A program made the translations under genes and the position numbers. The notes under the pieces are model-generated. The model was given only the letters and a program-made list of their open reading frames with translations. It ran no database searches and was not told the origin of the DNA. DNA of 64,000 nucleotides from Flavobacteriaceae bacterium (GTDB lineage: Bacteria; Bacteroidota; Bacteroidia; Flavobacteriales; Flavobacteriaceae): contig JAKITQ010000005.1 in NCBI GenBank assembly GCA_021647985.1, forward strand, positions 1-64,000. Direction: 5' to 3'. Positions 1,756 to 43,678 of the stretch are shown here, piece by piece (position 1 is the stretch's first letter; each line of letters opens with the position of its first letter).

Positions 1756-3726
1756 ATGACTAAGTATTTAACGGTATTATTTTTATTGTGTTTTGGGCTT
1801 TCCGCTGTAGCGCAAATAGACAGAGGAGGCTTCCCAAGTTTAGACAATAGGTTTGTTGAAGATATTGATGACACTACAAGAATAAACACCAAAGAAATAA
1901 AAATCAAACTAAGTGGTAAAACATTCTTTAAAGATTATAAAATAATCGATTATAAAAATGACACTACTTTTGTTGACACAACACTAGGCATTAAAAAAGA
2001 TTATAGCTTTAATTATATTAGAAAAGATAACTTGGAATTAATTGCTTTTGCCAATCAAGGACAAACCTTTAATAATTTAGCTTATACTTTTTCCAATAAT
2101 ACTTTAATTCCCAAAATTGGTGCTCGAGCCCAACATTTTAACTTTTACCAGGTTGAAGATATTAAGTATTTCTACGTGCCAACACCTACGACCCAGTTAA
2201 TGTATCGATCTGGAATGGAACAAGGTCAGATATTTGATGGTTTTTTCACTTTTAACACCTCAGAACAACTCAATGCTTCGATCGCTTTTAAAGGTATGCG
2301 CTCATTAGGTATCTACCGTAATTCTTTAAGTGATCATGGTAATGCCAGAGTTACACTTAACTATCACACCAAAAATAATCGATATAATATTCGAACACAC
2401 TTGGTAGCTCAAGATTTGAATAATGATCAAAATGGTGGATTAACTGATGATTCTATAGAAGCTTTTGAAAGTGGAGACCCCAATTTTAACGATAGAAATC
2501 GATTGGTTACCAATTTTACAGATGCCAAAAGTACCTTGAGAGGAAATCGCTACTATTTTGATCACAATTATAAAATTTGGACTAAAAATGATAGTTTAAA
2601 AAGAATTCCATCTGGTTTAACTATAGGTCATGTTTTTAACTATGAAAGGAAAAATTTTGAATACCGTCAAGAAATTGCCAGCCCTATTTTTGGAGATGCT
2701 TTCACATCTGAAATAAATGATAAATTAAAATATTCGAAATTATTCAACGAGGTATATTTATCTCTTAATTCACCTATTACTTTAGGTGAAGTAAAATTTA
2801 AAGTCAACAATTTTAACTACAATTATAAATATAATAGTGTTTTAATTTCGGATGATGGATTTATTGACTCAAATCTTAATGGCAATATTATAGCAGTTGG
2901 AGGAGAATGGAATACAAAATTAAAAAAAATTAATTTAAATATTGATGCTTCTACAAACATAAGTGGCAATCTTAATGGACATAATATTTCTGCGAAAGCA
3001 AGTTTTGTTAAAGACAGTTTAGTCAGGTTCAATGCTGGTGTATTTCGAAATAGCAAAGCACCAAATTTTAATTTTTTATTAAATCAAAGTGCTTATAAGG
3101 CTTTTAATTGGCAAAATAATTTTAAAAATGAAGACATGAATGGCTTTAATTTTGAAATAGATGCCAAAAAATGGATTTATGCGTCTGTTGAAATTACCAA
3201 TATTAACAATTACACTTACTTTGATGCACCAAATCCAGGAGAACAAACTAAACCTGTACAAGCATCTGAAACGGTTAATTATTTAAAACTTAAACTCAGT
3301 AAAGAAATTAAATTTGGGAATTTCGCTTTAGACAATCAATTTATTTATCAAAATGTTTCTGCTGGAGCAAATGTTTTGAATGTGCCCGATTTTATTACCC
3401 GAAATACTTTTTATTACGCAAATTATATATTTAAAGGCAAACCATTATTTATACAAACCGGTGTAACATTTAGTTATTTTAGCAAATATTATATGAATAC
3501 TTACAACCCTGTAATTTCAGAATTTTATCTTCAAAACAGTCAAAAATATGGAGGCTTTCCTTTATTAGATTTTTTCGTTAATATAAAGGTGAGAACCATG
3601 CGTGTATATTTTAAATTAGAACATTTTAATTCGAGTTTTGGCGAAAATAATTATTATTCGGCACCAACTTACCCATATCGCGATTTCACAATTCGATTTG
3701 GTTTGGTTTGGAATTTTTTCATATAG
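1756..3726 (+). CDS. putative outer-membrane porin (Porin_10 type)
   Basis: A 656-residue exported beta-barrel protein. It begins with a clear signal peptide (MTKYLTVLFLLCFGLSAVAQ) and continues with alternating aromatic/polar strands full of Tyr, Phe and Asn, such as ITRNTFYYANYIFKGKPLF, ending in DFTIRFGLVWNFFI, whose last residue is aromatic-adjacent as in outer-membrane barrels. Length and layout fit the 'putative porin' family of Bacteroidota, often found next to rnhB. The substrate is unknown. The ATG at 1756 is preferred because a TAnnTTTG box sits just upstream and because it starts the signal peptide exactly. Downstream lies the 165-bp inverted-repeat element. Confidence 0.75.
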   Translation: MTKYLTVLFLLCFGLSAVAQIDRGGFPSLDNRFVEDIDDTTRINTKEIKIKLSGKTFFKDYKIIDYKNDTTFVDTTLGIKKDYSFNYIRKDNLELIAFANQGQTFNNLAYTFSNNTLIPKIGARAQHFNFYQVEDIKYFYVPTPTTQLMYRSGMEQGQIFDGFFTFNTSEQLNASIAFKGMRSLGIYRNSLSDHGNARVTLNYHTKNNRYNIRTHLVAQDLNNDQNGGLTDDSIEAFESGDPNFNDRNRLVTNFTDAKSTLRGNRYYFDHNYKIWTKNDSLKRIPSGLTIGHVFNYERKNFEYRQEIASPIFGDAFTSEINDKLKYSKLFNEVYLSLNSPITLGEVKFKVNNFNYNYKYNSVLISDDGFIDSNLNGNIIAVGGEWNTKLKKINLNIDASTNISGNLNGHNISAKASFVKDSLVRFNAGVFRNSKAPNFNFLLNQSAYKAFNWQNNFKNEDMNGFNFEIDAKKWIYASVEITNINNYTYFDAPNPGEQTKPVQASETVNYLKLKLSKEIKFGNFALDNQFIYQNVSAGANVLNVPDFITRNTFYYANYIFKGKPLFIQTGVTFSYFSKYYMNTYNPVISEFYLQNSQKYGGFPLLDFFVNIKVRTMRVYFKLEHFNSSFGENNYYSAPTYPYRDFTIRFGLVWNFFI

Positions 3727-36553: not shown

Positions 36554-38356
36554 TTAACTCTTTTTATAAATTGGTACAGAAATAAAAATACTGGTTCCCT
36601 CTCCTTTTTTAGAATTGATATTAAAAACCCCATGCATTATTTTTACTCGTGCATCAATATGACTTAAACCTAAACCATCTTTTTTTCTTTCTTTCTTCAC
36701 ATCAAAGCCCTTACCATCGTCAATAATTTGAATTAAAAGTTTTTCCCCATTCCTTTCAATTAACGTGATAGAAGCATTTTTAGCCTTACTGTGTTTTAAT
36801 ATATTATTGATTAGTTCTTCAATAATACTATAAATTTTAATTTCAAACTTCTGATTGTATCTTTTAACTCCATTATCATCACTAATCAGTTCTAATTGAG
36901 AATTTGAATACTTTTCACAAATGTCATGAATGGCAAAGGCCAACCCAAATTTAAGTAAAACAGACGATATCAACTCATGTGAAAGATTTCGTATTTTAAT
37001 AGAGGCTTCATTTATAATATCTTGAGCCTTAGTTATTTCTACAGGAACTTTAGTTTTTAATATAGATTTTGATGCTTGTAAGTGTAAGTTAGCTGAAGAC
37101 AGTAAGGCACTTACACTATCGTGTAATATTTCGGCTATGGTTTTTCTTTCTTTTTCTTTGGCGTCAATAGTAGCATTGATTATTCTGGTTTGCAAATCGT
37201 TATTTACTTGTTCAATTTTATTTTGTTGTTTTAATTTATAATTTTTATAAAATATTAAAGTCAAAATAACAAATACTAAAGTTAAAAATGCCAAACCGTA
37301 AAACAATACTTGAGCCCGAAATGCATTACCTTTTTCTTCTTCTGTTTTTTGTTCTTCTTTAGCTAAATTATATTTGGCATCTACTTCGGCCAAACTTTCA
37401 GTTAATCGTGTATCGTATAATTTATCTTTTATTCTAAATGATTTATTCAAGTAATTATATGCATTCTTATAATCTTTTAGTGAATCATAGGACACAGATA
37501 AATTCTCATAAATAATCCTTTTTATATACAAAGCCCTAGAAGAAGTATCTTCAATAACATTTGTTTCTGCTTCAATATATTTTTTAATTGCAGTTTTAAA
37601 ATTACGCTCAAAGTGATAAAGGTTGCCCAAGTTAACTTTCAAAGAAGCAATTCCGACGGTATCTCTTTGTTGCAACTTTATTTTAATACCTTCTTTGGCA
37701 TATGCTTTAGCTAGGTCAAAATTATCATTATTTTGAGCTATAACACCTAAATTATTATAGGCATTAGAAATTCTTTGTTCTGTCTTTTCCGTTACCGGAA
37801 AATACGTTACTTGTCGAAAATAATATTTGGCACTATCTGCATTTTTTTTTGCATAATAAAAACTACCCAACCTAATCAATGACTTAGTAATATTGATGGT
37901 GTCTTTAATTAAGATCGCACCTTTTAACGCCTTTTTATTATAAAAGATTCCTTTGTCAAAATTTTGAGAATTCACAAATACTTTTGCTAAATAACTCGAG
38001 AATTCAATATTTAGTGGTGAAAAAGGATTCGTCTTTAATTTTTCATAACCATCCAATAAAATTTCAAGAGCCTTTTCTTTTTTATCCGTTTCAAAATATA
38101 TTTGAGCACGTCTAAATTCAAAAGCTAGCATACGCTCGCTATTTAGTCTAAATAAAAAAGTATTTTTGGTGTTTTTGATTAGATTCTCTGCATCATCAAA
38201 ATTATAAACCTTGATCAAAGAATCTATTTTTTCAAGTTTACTTTCAATATATTTATTTTCATTATTTTTTTCTTGCCCATAAGCAAACACTCCTAAAATA
38301 AAAAATAATATATAAGGGTACTTTTTAAAAATATCAATAAAAGGATTTGAAATCAA
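36554..38356 (-). CDS. TPR-containing sensor histidine kinase (NarX/LuxR-system type)
   Basis: A 600-residue membrane kinase. A signal-like hydrophobic start is followed by a periplasmic tetratricopeptide region (about 45-320, for example AYNNLGVIAQNNDNFDLAKAYAKEGI). One membrane helix follows (about 350-370, VLFYGLAFLTLVFVILTLIF). The HisKA_3 dimerisation motif ERKTIAEILHDSVSALLS has His412, and the ATPase has INNILKHSKA, DDGKGFDVK and GLGLSHIDARV. It phosphorylates the regulator encoded 21 bp upstream in the same operon. Translation starts at TTG 38356. The signal sensed is unknown. Confidence 0.9.
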   Translation of the reverse strand: MISNPFIDIFKKYPYILFFILGVFAYGQEKNNENKYIESKLEKIDSLIKVYNFDDAENLIKNTKNTFLFRLNSERMLAFEFRRAQIYFETDKKEKALEILLDGYEKLKTNPFSPLNIEFSSYLAKVFVNSQNFDKGIFYNKKALKGAILIKDTINITKSLIRLGSFYYAKKNADSAKYYFRQVTYFPVTEKTEQRISNAYNNLGVIAQNNDNFDLAKAYAKEGIKIKLQQRDTVGIASLKVNLGNLYHFERNFKTAIKKYIEAETNVIEDTSSRALYIKRIIYENLSVSYDSLKDYKNAYNYLNKSFRIKDKLYDTRLTESLAEVDAKYNLAKEEQKTEEEKGNAFRAQVLFYGLAFLTLVFVILTLIFYKNYKLKQQNKIEQVNNDLQTRIINATIDAKEKERKTIAEILHDSVSALLSSANLHLQASKSILKTKVPVEITKAQDIINEASIKIRNLSHELISSVLLKFGLAFAIHDICEKYSNSQLELISDDNGVKRYNQKFEIKIYSIIEELINNILKHSKAKNASITLIERNGEKLLIQIIDDGKGFDVKKERKKDGLGLSHIDARVKIMHGVFNINSKKGEGTSIFISVPIYKKS

Positions 38357-38377: not shown

Positions 38378-39037
38378 TTATACGACTTCATTTTTAAGGG
38401 CAAATATAGCCAAACCTACACTGTTTTTTACTTTTACTTTTTTCATTAGATTTTTTCGATGCGTTTCAACTGTACTTTCACTAATGTGCAACTCTTCTGC
38501 AATTTCTCTTGTACTGTACTGTTGTGCAACCAGTTTTAAGACTTGCACTTCCCTTTTTGTTAAAGAACTAATTAAAACACCATCTTGGCTACCTTCGTTT
38601 TTAACCTGCCCATTTAGCAGGGTTTGCATCATTTTTTCTTTTACATCATCGGTAAAGTATTGATTACCTTCCGCAACCTTATACACGGCATTTACTATAT
38701 GCTCTCCTGCAGATTTTTTGGGTACAAAACCTTTTGCCCCCATATTAAGTACTTCTTTTACCAATTTAACATCATCATAGCTTGACAAAATAATAATCTC
38801 AGGAACCTTTTTATTTTTTTTAATTTTTTTCAATACTTCTATGCCATCCAATTCAGGCATATTGATATCTAATATTAAAACATCTGCATTGTTATTTTTA
38901 AACCAATCCAATACTTCAATACCATTTAAAGAAAATCCAACCACCTCAATATCAGGCTCAATATTTAACACAGCTTTTACTCCATCAATCAAAATTTGAT
39001 GGTCATCAGCAATGTGTACTTTAATCTTACTCCCCAT
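38378..39037 (-). CDS. NarL/LuxR-family response regulator
   Basis: A 219-residue DNA-binding regulator. The receiver domain has the acidic pair HIADDHQ (11-12), phosphoacceptor Asp57 in LILDINMPELDG, and the LSS and GFVPKK switch residues. The LuxR-type helix-turn-helix near the end reads LTKREVQVLKLVAQQYSTREIAEELHISESTVETHRKNL. It pairs with the TPR kinase just downstream. Likely targets include the 33-nt motif found at 39666-39698 and 41147-41179 (my inference). Confidence 0.92.
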   Translation of the reverse strand: MGSKIKVHIADDHQILIDGVKAVLNIEPDIEVVGFSLNGIEVLDWFKNNNADVLILDINMPELDGIEVLKKIKKNKKVPEIIILSSYDDVKLVKEVLNMGAKGFVPKKSAGEHIVNAVYKVAEGNQYFTDDVKEKMMQTLLNGQVKNEGSQDGVLISSLTKREVQVLKLVAQQYSTREIAEELHISESTVETHRKNLMKKVKVKNSVGLAIFALKNEVV

Positions 39038-39165: not shown

Positions 39166-39573
39166 TTATTCCCAAATAATAATTCCTTTAGGTCTTCTGT
39201 CTGGATCTTGTGCATTTAACAAAGCATCCATAGCAGCAACATCATAGTTATTTGTATAAATATTGTTAAATGCTGTTTCTACTTTACCGTTAACCGATTG
39301 TAAGCCTAATGTAATTGTTTTAGATTGATTAGAATTACCATTTTCAACTAAAAATATCTCGTTAGAAGAACCAATTAAAGAAGAAGAAACAATAACGTTT
39401 TGATCTACTGTAAAGGTTACAGAAAAGTCTCCATCGTTATCCTCCATTATTGGAGTTGTTTCTAATAAAGTACCTTCTATATCCGCTAAAACCTTTGTAG
39501 TGTTGTTAGTAAGATTAGAAGTAAATGATGCCATAACTAATAATACGGCAATTGCAATTGTAAAGTTTTTCAT
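39166..39573 (-). CDS. small exported protein of unknown function
   Basis: A 135-residue protein with an N-terminal signal (MKNFTIAIAVLLVMASFTS). The mature part is Asp/Asn/Thr-rich with a short beta-type section (GDFSVTFTVDQNVIVSSSLIG, KTITLGLQSVNGKVE) and ends in DRRPKGIIIWE. I do not recognise a family. The upstream TTG-extended frame would place the start inside the leader; the ATG at 39573 opens the signal peptide. It has its own promoter with the 33-nt motif and its own terminator, and lies next to the two-component operon, so it may be a regulated output of that system. Confidence 0.65.
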   Translation of the reverse strand: MKNFTIAIAVLLVMASFTSNLTNNTTKVLADIEGTLLETTPIMEDNDGDFSVTFTVDQNVIVSSSLIGSSNEIFLVENGNSNQSKTITLGLQSVNGKVETAFNNIYTNNYDVAAMDALLNAQDPDRRPKGIIIWE

Positions 39574-39637
39574 AATAATAAATTTTAAAGATTTGTTTGT
39601 ATGTATTTTAATTGTCAACTCAAATAAGTCAACAGGT

Positions 39638-39698
39638 CAAATGTATTTGCAATTAACATACAAAACAATAGTGGAAATAGGGATTTTTTGATATACCC
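39638..39698 (-). promoter_or_regulatory. promoter of the small exported-protein gene with 33-nt upstream motif
   Basis: On the minus strand a TTG (-33, 39666-39668) and TACATTTG (-7, 39638-39645) are separated by 20 nt, a full Bacteroidota promoter. Directly upstream, GGGTATAT, AAAAATCC, TTCC and CTATTG occur in a 33-nt block (39666-39698). The same block, at the same distance from a -7 box, recurs at 41119-41179. The spacing suggests a transcription-factor site. Confidence 0.7.
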
Positions 39699-39940
39699 AA
39701 ATACCACCATATATATCCCTGAAAACCACTATTTAACGATTTTCAAGGATATATATTATATTATTATGTGATTATTTATTTTTCTATCTCATTTTTATAA
39801 CAAAATAATTATGCAATTATCTGTTTTTGTGCTTTTTATGATTTAAAATAGCATTTTACGCCATTATTATTTGAATATTTAACTGAAATTTATTAACTTG
39901 CACCTTACATTGAACAAAATTCAATAGTTGAAATACTTAT

Positions 39941-40078
39941 AGTAAGGAGAGAAGTTATTTGTTATTTATCAATAAATTGTTTTGCTTCTCTCCTAACTCC
40001 CTTTCCTTTTTCCCCTTTAATAGAAGTAAAACTTCTAAAAAAAATACTCACATTTTAAAAAATTTGGGTATTTTTTTT
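39941..40078 (+). ncRNA. candidate ncRNA, unit 0 (divergent)
   Basis: First member of the array. It begins AGTAAGGAGAGAAG, which pairs perfectly over 10 bp with CTTCTCTCCT some 40 nt later. The pyrimidine tail (ACTCCCTTTCC) is followed by a small AGAAGT-AAA-ACTTCT hairpin. It ends with AAATACTC/GGGTATTT and eight T, a good intrinsic terminator. Compared with units 1-4 a G replaces A in the stem and removes their one mismatch, so pairing is maintained. No open frame of note. Confidence 0.6.
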
Positions 40079-40085
40079 GTTTTAT

Positions 40086-40239
40086 AGTAAGGAGAAAAGT
40101 TAATTGTTTATATCTCGTTAAAGATCTAATGTTTCACTTCTCTCCTTTCTCCCCTATCTTTATCTCCAATGTTTGGAGTTATATTATCATTAAATAACTA
40201 TGAAGTTAATTTAATGTTCCTCAATTAAGAGTTTTTTTT
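40086..40239 (+). ncRNA. candidate ncRNA, unit 1
   Basis: A full unit: AAGGAGAAAAGT pairs with ACTTCTCTCCTT (12 bp, one mismatch) across an A/T-rich loop. Then come a C-rich tail (CTTTCTCCCC), the hairpin CTCCAA-TGT-TTGGAG, the hairpin CATTAAATAAC/GTTAATTTAATG and finally a short stem with eight T. It directly follows unit 0's terminator and lacks the CGGAATT block found before units 2-4. Confidence 0.65.
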
Positions 40240-40285
40240 ATAAATGTTTGCGGAATTCATAGCAATTTTCCTTCCGTTTAATAAT

Positions 40286-40440
40286 AGTAAGGAGAAAAGT
40301 TAATTGTTTAATATCTTTTTATAAAATACAATGTTTCACTTCTCTCCTTTCTCCCCTATCTTTATCTCCAATGTTTGGAGTTATATTGTCATTAAACAAC
40401 TATTAAGTTAATTTAATGTACCTCTATTAAGAGTTTTTTT
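40286..40440 (+). ncRNA. candidate ncRNA, unit 2
   Basis: Nearly identical to unit 1 in the stem, C-rich tail and the CTCCAA/TTGGAG hairpin. The third hairpin is CATTAAACAAC/GTTAATTTAATG and the end is CTCTATTAAGAG with seven T. The block CGGAATTCATAGC precedes it at 40251. Confidence 0.65.
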
Positions 40441-40486
40441 ATAAATGTTTGCGGAATTCATAGCAATTTTCGTTCCGTTTAATAAT

Positions 40487-40644
40487 AGTAAGGAGAAAAG
40501 TTAATTGTTTAATATCTTTTTAAAAAATACAATGTTTCACTTCTCTCCTTTCTCCCCTATCTTTATCTCCAATGTTTGGAGCTATATTATCATTAAACAA
40601 CTATATAGTTAATTTAATGCACCTCTTTATTAAGAGTTTTTTTT
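40487..40644 (+). ncRNA. candidate ncRNA, unit 3
   Basis: Same architecture: AAGGAGAAAAGT stem, pyrimidine tail, two middle hairpins and a terminator CTCTT-TATT-AAGAG with eight T. Differences from unit 2 are mostly in loops and in the length of T or A runs. The CGGAATTCATAGC block precedes it at 40452. Confidence 0.65.
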
Positions 40645-40690
40645 ATAAATGTTTGCGGAATTCATAGCAATTTTCCTTCCGTTTAATAAT

Positions 40691-40846
40691 AGTAAGGAGA
40701 AAAGTTAATTGTTTAATATCTTTCTAAAAAATATAATGTTTCACTTCTCTCCTTTCTCCCCTATCTTTATCTCCAATGTTTGGAGCTATATTATCATTAA
40801 ACAACTATATAGTTAATTTAACGCACCTCTTATTAAGAGTTTTTTT
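40691..40846 (+). ncRNA. candidate ncRNA, unit 4
   Basis: Same architecture as unit 3, closing with CTCTT-ATT-AAGAG and seven T. The CGGAATTCATAGC block lies before it at 40656, and another copy follows at 40858, leading only into a truncated AGTA start that runs into a palindrome at 40887. Confidence 0.65.
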
Positions 40847-40886
40847 ATAAATGTTTGCGGAATTCATAGCAATTTTCCTTCCTTTT

Positions 40887-40910
40887 AATAATAGTATCCA
40901 TACTATTATT
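40887..40910. repeat. near-perfect 24-bp palindrome
   Basis: Arms AATAATAGTAT and ATACTATTATT with a two-base centre. The left arm is the end of the tandem unit, so the palindrome marks where the array breaks off. Confidence 0.7.
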
Positions 40911-40990
40911 AGTATTTCTTTTTTAAAGAAATTTGATTTTCAAAAATGTCAATTCGGAATTTATAGCAATTTTTTCCTTTTCAATTTTAA

Positions 40991-41087
40991 AGAAAGAGAG
41001 AAGTAATTTGTTTTAGCAATAAAAATCAAAATCTTCTTCTCTCCTTTCCCCCCTTTTTTTAAATCTTCGTTAAAAGATTATTTTTTT
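40991..41087 (+). ncRNA. candidate ncRNA, unit 5 (short, divergent)
   Basis: A shorter relative: AGAAAGAGAGAAG pairs with CTTCTCTCCTTTC, followed by a C-rich tail (TCCCCCC). The end is AATCTT-CGTTAA-AAGATT with ATTTTTTT, an intrinsic terminator. The upstream block reads CGGAATTTATAGCAATTTT (40955), so the block is conserved where the middle of the unit is not. Confidence 0.55.
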
Positions 41088-41118
41088 AATTACAAATATC
41101 TCATTCATAATTACACTA

Positions 41119-41179
41119 CAAACATATGCCAACATAACGTTATACACAATAGAGGAATTTAGGATTTTTAAATATACCC
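41119..41179 (-). promoter_or_regulatory. second copy of the 33-nt motif promoter, reading into the array
   Basis: Minus-strand TTG (41147-41149), 20 nt, then TATGTTTG (41119-41126), preceded by the same GGGTATAT..AAAAATCC..TTCC.CTATTG block as at 39666-39698. Spacing is identical in both copies. No protein gene follows; a transcript would be antisense to units 5 to 0. Confidence 0.6.
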
Positions 41180-41266
41180 GAAAACCGTTAGAAATGATAG
41201 TTCATAAAAAATGGCTGTTTAAATTATATTAAACAGCCATCACACACTATAACTAAGTTATAAGAC

Positions 41267-41701
41267 CTACCGTAATCTATCTACAGATTTTACGAGTTTT
41301 TCATCCTTTAGTATAGCTTTATTAGCAAATACTAATAAAACGATAACCAATTCAGGGATTAAAAGCCCAATACCCTTCTCTGAAATTTGACTTTCTCCAG
41401 GTACAGTTAGTAAATGATAAACAATAATTCCTAATAAATAGAAGTTGACAACAATATTCAATCTATTGATTGTAATTTGTTGTTTACGATTTTTATATTT
41501 AAAAATAGATATGAATGACATAAGTGAAGAAAGCACAAATACTATCATTAATGTATTAAGTTTCCAGTCAGTTTCTTGTAATAGGTCTAATAAATAATAT
41601 ACTTTGTCATTATTATCTTTCCAAAAAGATAACAAAAACACTACACCTCCCGATAAAATCGTGCTAAATAATAAATATAAGGTTTGTGTTCTTTGTAGCA
41701 T
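41267..41701 (-). CDS. DUF4293 membrane protein
   Basis: A 144-residue protein with four membrane helices, beginning MLQRTQTLYLLFSTILSGG, the typical start of DUF4293. The second helix is followed by the basic loop KYKNRKQQITINRLN and the C-terminus is charged. The family is specific to Bacteroidota and often lies next to rho, as here (divergent). Function unknown. Confidence 0.88.
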   Translation of the reverse strand: MLQRTQTLYLLFSTILSGGVVFLLSFWKDNNDKVYYLLDLLQETDWKLNTLMIVFVLSSLMSFISIFKYKNRKQQITINRLNIVVNFYLLGIIVYHLLTVPGESQISEKGIGLLIPELVIVLLVFANKAILKDEKLVKSVDRLR

Positions 41702-41911: not shown

Positions 41912-43678
41912 ATGATGTTCGAAATAGAAGAACTCAAAGAAAAGAAACTTTTAGAGTTGCAAGAAATTGCTCAAAAAATTGGCGTTCCAAAATTCCGCCA
42001 ATTAAAAAAATTAGACCTAGTTTATCAAATTCTTGATGTACAGGCAGCAAATCCAAAAAAAATTACAGAAGATACTTCTTCAGCCAACAAACCTAAGCGT
42101 AAAAGAATTACAAAAGTTAAAACTCAAGATCTTTTTAAAAATAACGACAATCAAAACGTGCAAAAAGATTTATTTGAACAAACCGAACAGAAAAGTGAGA
42201 AAGTAAACAAAGTACAAAGTAATAAACCGCAACAAAACTCACCACAACAAAATACTCCGCAACAAAAGGCGCCAGAACAAAACCAACCTCAACAAAATAA
42301 TCCACAACCAAATAAGGGGCAGCAAAACTCTCCAGAAAGAAAAAATACCACCAAACCACTTGTTAAACAAGGTGACAACAAGGAAAACCAAAAGGAAATC
42401 GTAAAACCGAAAAATACGAATCCGAATACAGAAAGTTCAGAAAAAAAAGACCAGCCATTTTCAAAACAACATAAACAAAATCAACAAAAAGATCAAAAGT
42501 TTCAAAAACCGAGAAGCAATGATTTTAAAAAGCAAGGAAAATATAGAGATCCTGATTTTGAATTTGATGGTATTATTGAAAGTGAAGGTGTTCTTGAAAT
42601 AATGCCTGATGGTTATGGCTTTTTAAGATCTTCTGATTACAATTACTTGTCATCACCTGATGATATTTACGTTTCACAATCACAAATTAAACTTTTCGGA
42701 TTAAAAACAGGAGATACTGTTAAAGGTAAAGTACGTCCTCCTAAAGAAGGTGAAAAATACTTTCCACTAATTAGAGTTTCTTTTATTAATGGTTTAAATC
42801 CAAGTATTGTTCGTGATAGAGTTTCCTTTGAACACTTAACACCTTTATTTCCTACAGAAAAATACGATATAGCTAGCAATAATGCTTCTATTTCTTCCAG
42901 AATTATTGATTTGTTTTCCCCTATTGGAAAAGGTCAAAGAGGTATGATCGTAGCACAACCAAAAACTGGTAAAACAATTCTGTTAAAAGATATTGCCAAT
43001 TCTATTGCAGCAAATCACCCTGAAGTTTATCAAATTATTTTATTAATTGATGAAAGACCAGAAGAAGTTACCGATATGCAACGCAATGTAAAAGGAGAAG
43101 TAATCGCTTCCACCTTTGATGAATCTGCTGAAAAGCACGTAAGAGTTGCCAATATCGTTTTAGAAAAAGCAAAAAGACTTGTTGAATGTGGTCATGATGT
43201 GGTTATTTTATTAGATTCTCTTACACGATTGGCAAGAGCATATAATACAGTAGCGCCTGCTTCGGGTAAAATTTTATCGGGAGGTATTGATGCCAATGCC
43301 CTACACAAACCAAAAAGATTTTTTGGTGCAGCTCGTAATATAGAAAATGGTGGATCACTTTCAATAATTGCTACTGCATTAACCGATACTGGCTCAAAAA
43401 TGGATGAAGTTATTTTTGAAGAATTTAAAGGTACAGGTAATATGGAATTGCAATTGGATAGAAATATCTCTAATAGAAGAATTTATCCTGCTATTGATCT
43501 TGTTAAATCAAGTACACGTCGTGACGACCTTCTTCTTGATGAAACTGCTAGAAAACGCATGTGGGTATTGCGTAAATACCTTGCGGATATGAATCCTATC
43601 GAAGCCATGGAATTTGTTAATGAAAAAATTAAATTCACAAAAAACAACGACGAATTTTTAATGTCAATGAATGGGTAG
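41912..43678 (+). CDS. rho: transcription termination factor Rho with long N/Q/K-rich insert
   Basis: The hexameric RNA helicase that ends transcription. The 588 residues start with the Rho_N domain (about 1-45). A low-complexity segment of some 160 residues (about 50-210) follows, rich in Gln, Asn, Pro and Lys, with PQQN-type repeats. The RNA-binding cold-shock domain comes next ([21 protein letters not shown], 226-246), then the ATPase with Walker [10 protein letters not shown] (347-355), Walker [16 protein letters not shown] and [10 protein letters not shown]. coli Rho is 419 residues, so the insert accounts for the extra length. Such inserts are reported in other Bacteroidota. A strong terminator follows the gene. 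Confidence 0.96.

Follow-up and report, generated by a model that had tools for sequence, protein, structure and literature searches.

The window analysed here, a 64,000-nucleotide stretch from a Flavobacteriaceae genome (contig JAKITQ010000005.1), carries between a response regulator operon and a DUF4293 gene an array of tandem units, and the question raised by this locus is whether the array specifies RNA and, if so, from which strand and with what partner. An earlier note had read the six units as independent + strand small RNA genes. The array and its upstream region comprise the following features.

39941..40079, + strand: unit 0, type A, read as a putative + strand small RNA, with hairpin GGAGAGAAG/CTTCTCTCC, C-rich tail CTAACTCCCTTTCCTTTTTCCCC and a terminator hairpin at 40037-40079
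40083..40160, - strand: core of unit 1, type B, with the GGGGAGAAAGGAGAGAAG patch and hairpin on the minus strand
40252..40271, - strand: motif separating units 1 and 2, reading GGAAAATTGCTATGAATTCC on minus, with near copies between later units
40283..40362, - strand: core of unit 2, type B
40484..40563, - strand: core of unit 3, type B
40688..40767, - strand: core of unit 4, type B
40987..41059, - strand: core of unit 5, type C, with GGGGGGAAAGGAGAGAAG on minus; the strand call for type C is ambiguous
41119..41149, - strand: promoter TTG-N20-TATGTTTG, reading into the array
41150..41201, - strand: regulatory element upstream of the array promoter, gap-free in a 26-sequence alignment

Four copies of a 201-bp unit lie at 40084-40896 with 94% matches (Tandem Repeats Finder), and two diverged relatives flank them, at ~39941 (unit 0) and ~40987 (unit 5). 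This layout had been described in the earlier note and was confirmed by sequence comparison as well, as were the motif common to the six units, GGAGARAAG ... CTTCTCTCC (AGAGAGAAG in unit 5) with a C-rich tail, and the observation that the terminator sequences of units 0 and 5 are unlike those of units 1-4. The type of a unit is set by its position, the first being A (CTCCTAACTCCC..), those in the middle B (CTCCTTTCTCCCC) and the last C (CTCCTTTCCCCCC). No further array copies were found in the same genome by blast with one unit. In two related loci (L041 and L042) the motif TTATTAGCGTTA (or TTT) occurs in the loops of the B units and in a hairpin between unit A and its terminator. A small minus-strand ORF following the promoter (MKK.. 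in L033) was rejected, its frame not being kept in L034, L037 and L044 as judged by eye.

Searches with one unit (blast) found arrays in 12 of the 22 genomes of the genus (Lutimonas, judging by named relatives), its own included, and in 6/6 near-complete ones, with mostly the stem arms and C-rich tail alone being kept across them. A pattern scan added Aureibaculum luteum, A. flavum, A. marinum and further Flavobacteriaceae (26 stretches), and repeat number was found to vary naturally between genomes from 2 to 7. The array covariance model, under strict filters, matched 7 of 397 genomes of the family in 4 genera, a count that includes G394, whose weak match (L068) is a short hairpin directly after a gene and was set aside. 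At the level of the order 11 of 395 genomes were matched; nine of these are weak matches (R1, E 4e-5 to 9e-4) in 0.6-Mb genomes of one other family and were rejected, the three such loci that were opened being protein-coding and glycine-rich by appearance. A Dyadobacter match (L076) was taken as chance, being a longer inverted repeat of purine/pyrimidine type that lacks the flanking promoter. No distant blastn match to the array was found in phage records, and the unit pattern occurred in 0 viral contigs. That the repeats are real and selected, forming, as the earlier note preferred, non-coding RNA rather than inert satellite DNA, is strongly supported by their conservation across genera.

The note had also pointed to comparison with Rfam, which places the array in no curated family: Rfam 15 gave nothing over the gathering threshold for the array (tRNA only in the window), and at E<=10 the region 39600-41300 returned sub-threshold, chance-like matches only, GibS not among them. 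Flavo-1 and 6S-Flavo are presumably both Rfam families. Among the literature matches listed, mostly open-access papers, there was no report of the array or of the unlinked RNA described below, none combining Lutimonas with small RNA, and none combining Flavobacterium, small RNA, C-rich and tandem; the best 12 of 45 matches on sponges included no Bacteroidota sponge by title.

Each unit had been thought to end on the + strand in a hairpin and T-run. This held for unit 0, which has a strong + terminator (-12.4 kcal/mol, with T8), but the corresponding structures are weak in units 1-4 (-1.6 to -3.8 kcal/mol) and in the unit 5 fragment (-3.9). A strong + terminator after unit A recurs in L065, in L087 and in each of the 7 Lutimonas loci scanned, and none above threshold was present in 9/9 scanned arrays at the second of the two loci defined below. 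On the minus strand, scans of seven Lutimonas loci and of the second-locus arrays gave no convincing terminator that would end an array transcript; the sole candidates in the Lutimonas scan were instances of the hairpin common to A and B1 (-5.1 in the window, -7.5 in L044), and none lay at the array end in second-locus arrays.

All six units of the window share CTTCTCTCC as the 3' arm of the stem. Facing it, the GGAGAAAAG found in units 1-4 leaves an A.C mismatch on the + strand and G.U on the minus strand, contrary to the suggestion that + strand pairing is preserved in variant units. When 58 units of the genus were aligned (RNAalifold), 3 of the 8 consensus pairs showed change on both sides, each in one sequence only; outer-stem covariation is nearly absent, and what is conserved is the sequence. 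In the inner hairpins of second-locus arrays, the sequence differs and the pairing stays (GTTAAG/CTTAAC, GAATTAA/TTAATTC; by eye). Wobble was scored over the outer 9 bp of the stem, counting cells as G.U or A.C on the + strand, where A.C corresponds to G.U on the minus strand. The A units (n = 11) gave 9 G.U and 0 A.C, the B units (n = 42) 6 and 15, the C units (n = 11) 5 and 4 with 6 other, and the second-locus units (n = 24) 0 and 25, counts that represent few events because of shared ancestry, the 25:0 being mostly one common substitution at stem position 6 in 22 of the 24 units. These units come from a set of 96 hits, from which 7 duplicates were removed together with 1 empty string; of the resulting 88, 86 have enough upstream sequence for the promoter count. 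In 67 of the 88 the MFE is lower for the minus strand; by mean folding z-score the strands hardly differ (-3.16 plus, -3.05 minus, with minus lower in 49/88).

The TTG trinucleotide is a -33 promoter element. TAnnTTTG is given as the sigmaA -7 box in the available part of PMC9723704. The consensus TTG-N20-TAnnTTTG is present on the minus strand, pointing into the array, in 26/26 arrays with flank; 28 array loci were tried, two of which (L036, L043) end inside the array, and L086 lay outside the list. The N20 spacing is exact, the promoter stands 60-84 bp from the first purine patch, and the promoter region aligns without gaps over 93 columns in the 26 sequences. A second count of 26/26 is a repeat of the first because its windows were preselected for the promoter; the independent parts are the number of promoters pointing away from the array (0), the letter shuffles, which give a mean of 0.31 and a maximum of 4, and the counts on the + strand, where the consensus lies upstream of 0/86 units and TAnnTTTG alone upstream of 2/86, other sigma factors being possible. 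A sigma-54 promoter at the GGAATTCATAGCAATTTTCC motif was rejected by eye, as the spacing does not fit. With the strong + terminator and + G.U variation confined to unit 0, and with the promoter on the minus strand and not on the +, six independent + strand small RNA genes are not upheld. Type A is probably read on the + strand and type B on the minus strand, and type C is assigned, probably, to the minus strand because of the minus promoter. The array strand would thus differ from the first proposal for most units, a correction of practical weight, as follow-up work would otherwise target the wrong strand.

The element upstream of this promoter occurs a second time in the window, on the other side of the array, and the genes concerned are the following.

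41267..41701, - strand: DUF4293 protein, encoded upstream of the array in the minus direction; a hairpin resembling a minus terminator lies at ~41209-41241
39632..39712, - strand: copy of element and promoter before the secreted-protein/response regulator/histidine kinase operon (E 7.2e-10)
39166..39618, - strand: first operon gene, a secreted-type protein of ~150 aa with no Pfam family
38378..39037, - strand: response regulator with receiver and LuxR/GerE DNA-binding domain
36554..38356, - strand: histidine kinase with TPR repeats (HisKA_3, HATPase_c)

DUF4293, the minus strand of the array and the response regulator operon all run in the same direction. The response regulator likely binds the array element. 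A sequence model of the promoter region (R2) was run on eight genomes; the array promoter was the best match in 8/8, and a weaker site was found by the response regulator operon in 8/8, the operon having been identified from its full sequence in L044, L065, L148, L149 and the window and by position in the remainder. A third R2 site precedes a small secreted-protein operon in five Lutimonas genomes and G166. Six weaker R2 sites were also opened, of which two lie directly before a response regulator gene (L150 and L156, in two further genera) and none of the others (L151, L152, L154, L155) does. This placement of the element might be what an autoregulated response regulator leaves. In the secreted-protein operon (L142-L147, L153), small proteins of secreted type are encoded in tandem behind the element, and they carry VTTFPNGEEAITI / KVTKYVTTFPNGEEAITI or a close variant. 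L151, a weak match to the promoter model, shows at ~3095-3160 a set of nearly identical repeated genes, the first preceded by 12 consecutive C residues that may form a phase-variable tract.

The array and promoter layout is kept at two loci, assigned by tblastn. At the first, beside DUF4293/rho or the secreted protein/response regulator genes, lie the arrays of the window, L033-L044, L065 and L087; at the second, beside MiaE and/or DUF4870, lie those of L066, L067, L070-L072, L074, L079, L081, L082, L084, L086, L088, L090 and L092, four of which (L074, L084, L088, L092) start ~10-30 nt past the miaE stop codon. The response regulator locus is suggested as the array's place of origin, since a lone unit remains there in genomes with the array elsewhere. 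Such single unit-like elements, carrying the 14-mer described next, were seen near that locus in L148 (~3190-3260, reverse complement), L149, L169 and L203, the last being placed there from its element and promoter only.

The tail of the B units contains a C-rich 14-mer, TCTCCTTTCTCCCC, exactly complementary to the purine patch of the minus strand. In five Lutimonas genomes (G000, G001, G002, G008, G021) the exact 14-mer is found in the array only, and Aureibaculum G333 has five, of which two are in the array, one at the response regulator promoter and two unlinked; the reversed-control 14-mer had 0 exact matches in 16 genomes. Unlinked copies number 1-5 per genome, 351-510 bp apart where there are several, and belong to an element of ~190-260 nt (340 in one genome) that usually runs AGGGGGAA, a hairpin GAAGC..GCTTC, GGGAAAATTGCTATGAAAAA or a relative, the 14-mer, and a GC-rich hairpin with T6-T8, terminator and 14-mer both lying on the C-rich strand. 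The consensus hairpin of the element shows G-C/G-U and C-G/U-A/A-U exchanges. The first 16 bases of the inter-unit motif GGAAAATTGCTATGAATTCC are present in unlinked-RNA copies of other genera, and one L203 unit has AATTGCTATGAAA and the 14-mer in common with the unlinked RNA, in + orientation. Further exact 14-mers lie in a unit of response regulator-locus type at G416:C1, at the other array end at G419:C2, and at G417:C35 and G423:C36.

A model of the part of the element preceding the 14-mer (R3), chosen to reduce selection by the 14-mer itself, matched 13/13 genomes with the array at miaE/DUF4870 and 0/12 others among 25 genomes, the negative twelve being G349, in which the family scans found no array, and eleven whose array lies at rho/RR (nine Lutimonas, G166, G427). 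In the family sample R3 matched 2/397 genomes, both Aureibaculum. This co-distribution follows clade lines and may represent few events. Among 33 unlinked copies, two identical pairs included, the 14-mer is exact in 24, all first found by it, and the nine found otherwise have one mismatch (6), three (1) or no 14-mer (2, both G421); the best match of the reversed control in these copies has 3 to 7 mismatches. Of the 13 genomes with the element, 10 carry the 14-mer in it unchanged, and by homology the complement of the patch is also present in unit 0 of Lutimonas; the earlier idea of the C-rich tail as a pairing site is supported in this changed form. The element is interpreted as a putative small RNA with the C-rich stretch as its seed. 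The loci tested gave nothing but tRNA over gathering in Rfam, with sub-threshold matches only for two run in E-value mode, and the GibS model scored 18.1 bits against 115 on one copy; the co-distributed C-rich family was not found in any of the libraries searched. When array, unlinked and response regulator-locus copies were removed, the 14-mer at <=2 mismatches hit 74 places in four genomes, compared with 67 for the reversed control, and no target is named for this reason. The unlinked loci L157, L198-L202, L204-L207, L215, L217, L219, L225 and L233 have strong terminators and resemble an RNA family in their own right; the element of L157 lies beside a zinc-ribbon-looking gene (MEKLCPECGAKIIG..). 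In the first copies of L204-L206 a frame of 18 codons starts at an ATG in GCTATGAAAAA and spans the 14-mer; it was discarded by eye on account of an early stop or shift in most others.

The reading we favour, to which we give slightly less than an even chance, is that the array is a tandem-repeat RNA gene, transcribed mainly from the minus strand under two-component control, that acts as a multi-site sponge of C-rich small RNAs. From its conservation, the minus promoter, the element shared with the response regulator operon, and the complementary element with its co-distribution, we infer transcription, response regulator binding, duplex formation, a sponge effect and mRNA targets of the small RNA. 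The TPR histidine kinase and LuxR-type response regulator would activate the promoter just beyond unit 5, and the minus transcript would extend from unit 5 through unit 1, every unit forming a stable hairpin with the purine patch GGGGAGAAAGGAG in front of it. These patches would pair with small RNAs bearing the C-rich UCUCCUUUCUCCCC, removing those RNAs from action. The partner would be the unlinked RNA in second-locus genomes, and in Lutimonas unit 0, as a + strand small RNA with its own terminator at the far array end. For unit A on the + strand, the predicted duplex energy is -76.6 kcal/mol when the B unit is read on minus, compared with -34.8 for the + strand, a value that is expected and no independent proof because the units are homologous. 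The purine patch itself is predicted to be paired over half of its length or more, GGGGAGA being partly open and AAGGAGA in the stem. A fuller version of the sponge, in which 2-7 hairpin sites are exact complements of the seed of the co-distributed small RNA, titration strength scales with repeat number, and the Lutimonas sponge and + strand small RNA occupy opposite ends of one two-component-controlled locus, is a tentative proposal that we think somewhat more apt to be wrong than right.

Several points weigh against a sponge: no convincing minus terminator ends the transcript, the z-scores are close on both strands, the patch is largely paired in the prediction, type C is ambiguous, the 25:0 wobble count and the co-distribution may each reflect few events, and two G421 copies lack the 14-mer. 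The + terminator and G.U pattern of unit 0 also indicate + transcription at least there, and the same data would fit two small RNA families with a common C-rich seed if the array were read on the + strand. The unlinked RNA of other genera would then be another family, alike in seed and targets, and the minus promoter would, under an active response regulator, give an antisense transcript that silences the array. This is doubtful, yet it retains about a quarter of our belief because unit A lies on the + strand, the unlinked RNA has its 14-mer on the terminator-defined C-rich strand, and there is no clear minus terminator; the + orientation of what the L203 unit shares with that RNA, and the recurrence of the terminator after unit A, are in its favour too. 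It accounts poorly for the absence of a consensus promoter on the + strand, for the weak + terminators of units 1-4, and for second-locus arrays that have no above-threshold + terminator and in four cases begin just past miaE.

Alternatively, the minus patches (AGAAAGGAG) could be extended Shine-Dalgarno (SD) mimics that pair with the 16S tail CUCCUUUCU and titrate bS21-free ribosomes, altering translation of rpsU and other genes. The appeal of the idea is that AGAAAGGAG is complementary to the 16S tail in a group in which other SDs are said to be rare; the available part of PMC9976891 describes SDs as very rare in Flavobacteriales except for rpsU, bS21-free ribosomes as preferring very strong SDs, and values below -13 kcal/mol as characteristic of rpsU. 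The 16S gene of G021 ends in CACCTCCTTTCT (mature end assumed), and its tail forms duplexes of -13.8 (B) and -13.5 kcal/mol (C) by RNAduplex, nominally beyond the -13 obtained with another program. However, rpsU of G021 pairs far better (-21.5, RNAduplex), half of the patch is inside the hairpin, the type A patch reaches only -10.0, and the complementary RNA is left unexplained, so that we regard a ribosome decoy as unlikely. Judging from the same portion of PMC9976891, the array resembles the extended SD of Flavobacterium johnsoniae rpsU in that its purine patch complements the 16S tail, but the latter is an mRNA leader with longer pairing and the array is non-coding and repeated.

We attach equally little weight to a protein decoy in the manner of CsrB/RsmZ, in which GGAG-bearing hairpins would sequester an RNA-binding protein under the LuxR-type response regulator. 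In CsrB/RsmXYZ systems under GacA, a LuxR-type response regulator controls RNA with repeated GGA motifs that sequesters CsrA/RsmA. The near-identical hairpins, GGA motifs and putative LuxR-type control of the array are alike; the CsrA/RsmA-type protein is a feature of the CsrB/RsmXYZ side, CsrA is to our knowledge absent in Bacteroidota, and the complementary RNA is again unaccounted for. GacAS-controlled Rsm RNAs are mentioned in the part of PMC4132741 available. A DNA-level or neutral repeat array without RNA function can be set aside as very improbable: recombination expands tandem repeats, and the B units match unit 2 at 93-95% identity, but arms and patch are conserved across genera while spacers diverge, and promoter and element are conserved as well.

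The sponge that we favour has a counterpart in CrfA of Caulobacter crescentus, which acts with Hfq as a sponge of the sibling small RNAs SisA-D and beside which QrrX is named as another (PMC12559287, available text). Both would be separate, signal- or stress-induced RNAs that pair with and neutralise a sibling family, the array's side of the likeness being drawn from sequence; unlike CrfA, judging from that text, the array would carry 2-7 tandem hairpin sites, be two-component-driven and belong to Flavobacteriaceae (PMC12559287). Listeria LhrC, in the accessible portion of PMC4132741, comprises near-identical copies with CU/UCCC-rich pairing motifs whose expression requires LisRK. The array likewise has several near-identical copies with a C/U-rich pairing motif, but LhrC is the C-rich strand binding mRNA and the array is probably mostly the purine strand, in another phylum. 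Copies each with their own promoter and terminator on the C-rich strand, as in the LhrC comparison, were not found, in keeping with the + strand counts above; an element that may reflect two-component control is common to array and response regulator operon, but at the minus promoter. Within Bacteroidota, the FopS family of Bacteroides thetaiotaomicron consists, as far as the available part of PMC11697453 describes it, of 14 small RNAs of ~65-70 nt with canonical sigmaABfr promoters and a 5' seed that targets susC mRNAs. FopS/GibS is similarly a paralogous small RNA family in this phylum, unlike the array in that the word tandem does not occur in the part of the paper available (PMC11697453); the array lies below gathering for GibS, a comparison made with the Rfam GibS model.

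If the fuller version of the sponge is true, flavobacteria would possess a dosage-tunable RNA titration circuit. The proposed circuit, assembled here from sequence comparison alone, consists of a sensor kinase, a response regulator with its DNA element, target promoters of three kinds, the repeat RNA and a partner element that matches it perfectly over 14 bases, and the natural range of 2 to 7 repeats would make titration strength comparable across species. RNA regulation in Flavobacteriaceae is little known, the best-studied precedent found in the phylum, from partly available sources, being FopS/RbpB in Bacteroides.

The rho gene of the window (41912-43678), which lies beyond DUF4293, encodes a Rho protein with a long Q/N-rich N-terminal stretch, and tandem repeats of 15-60 bp are present at 42224-42337. 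The Rho of Bacteroides reportedly contains a disordered insertion.
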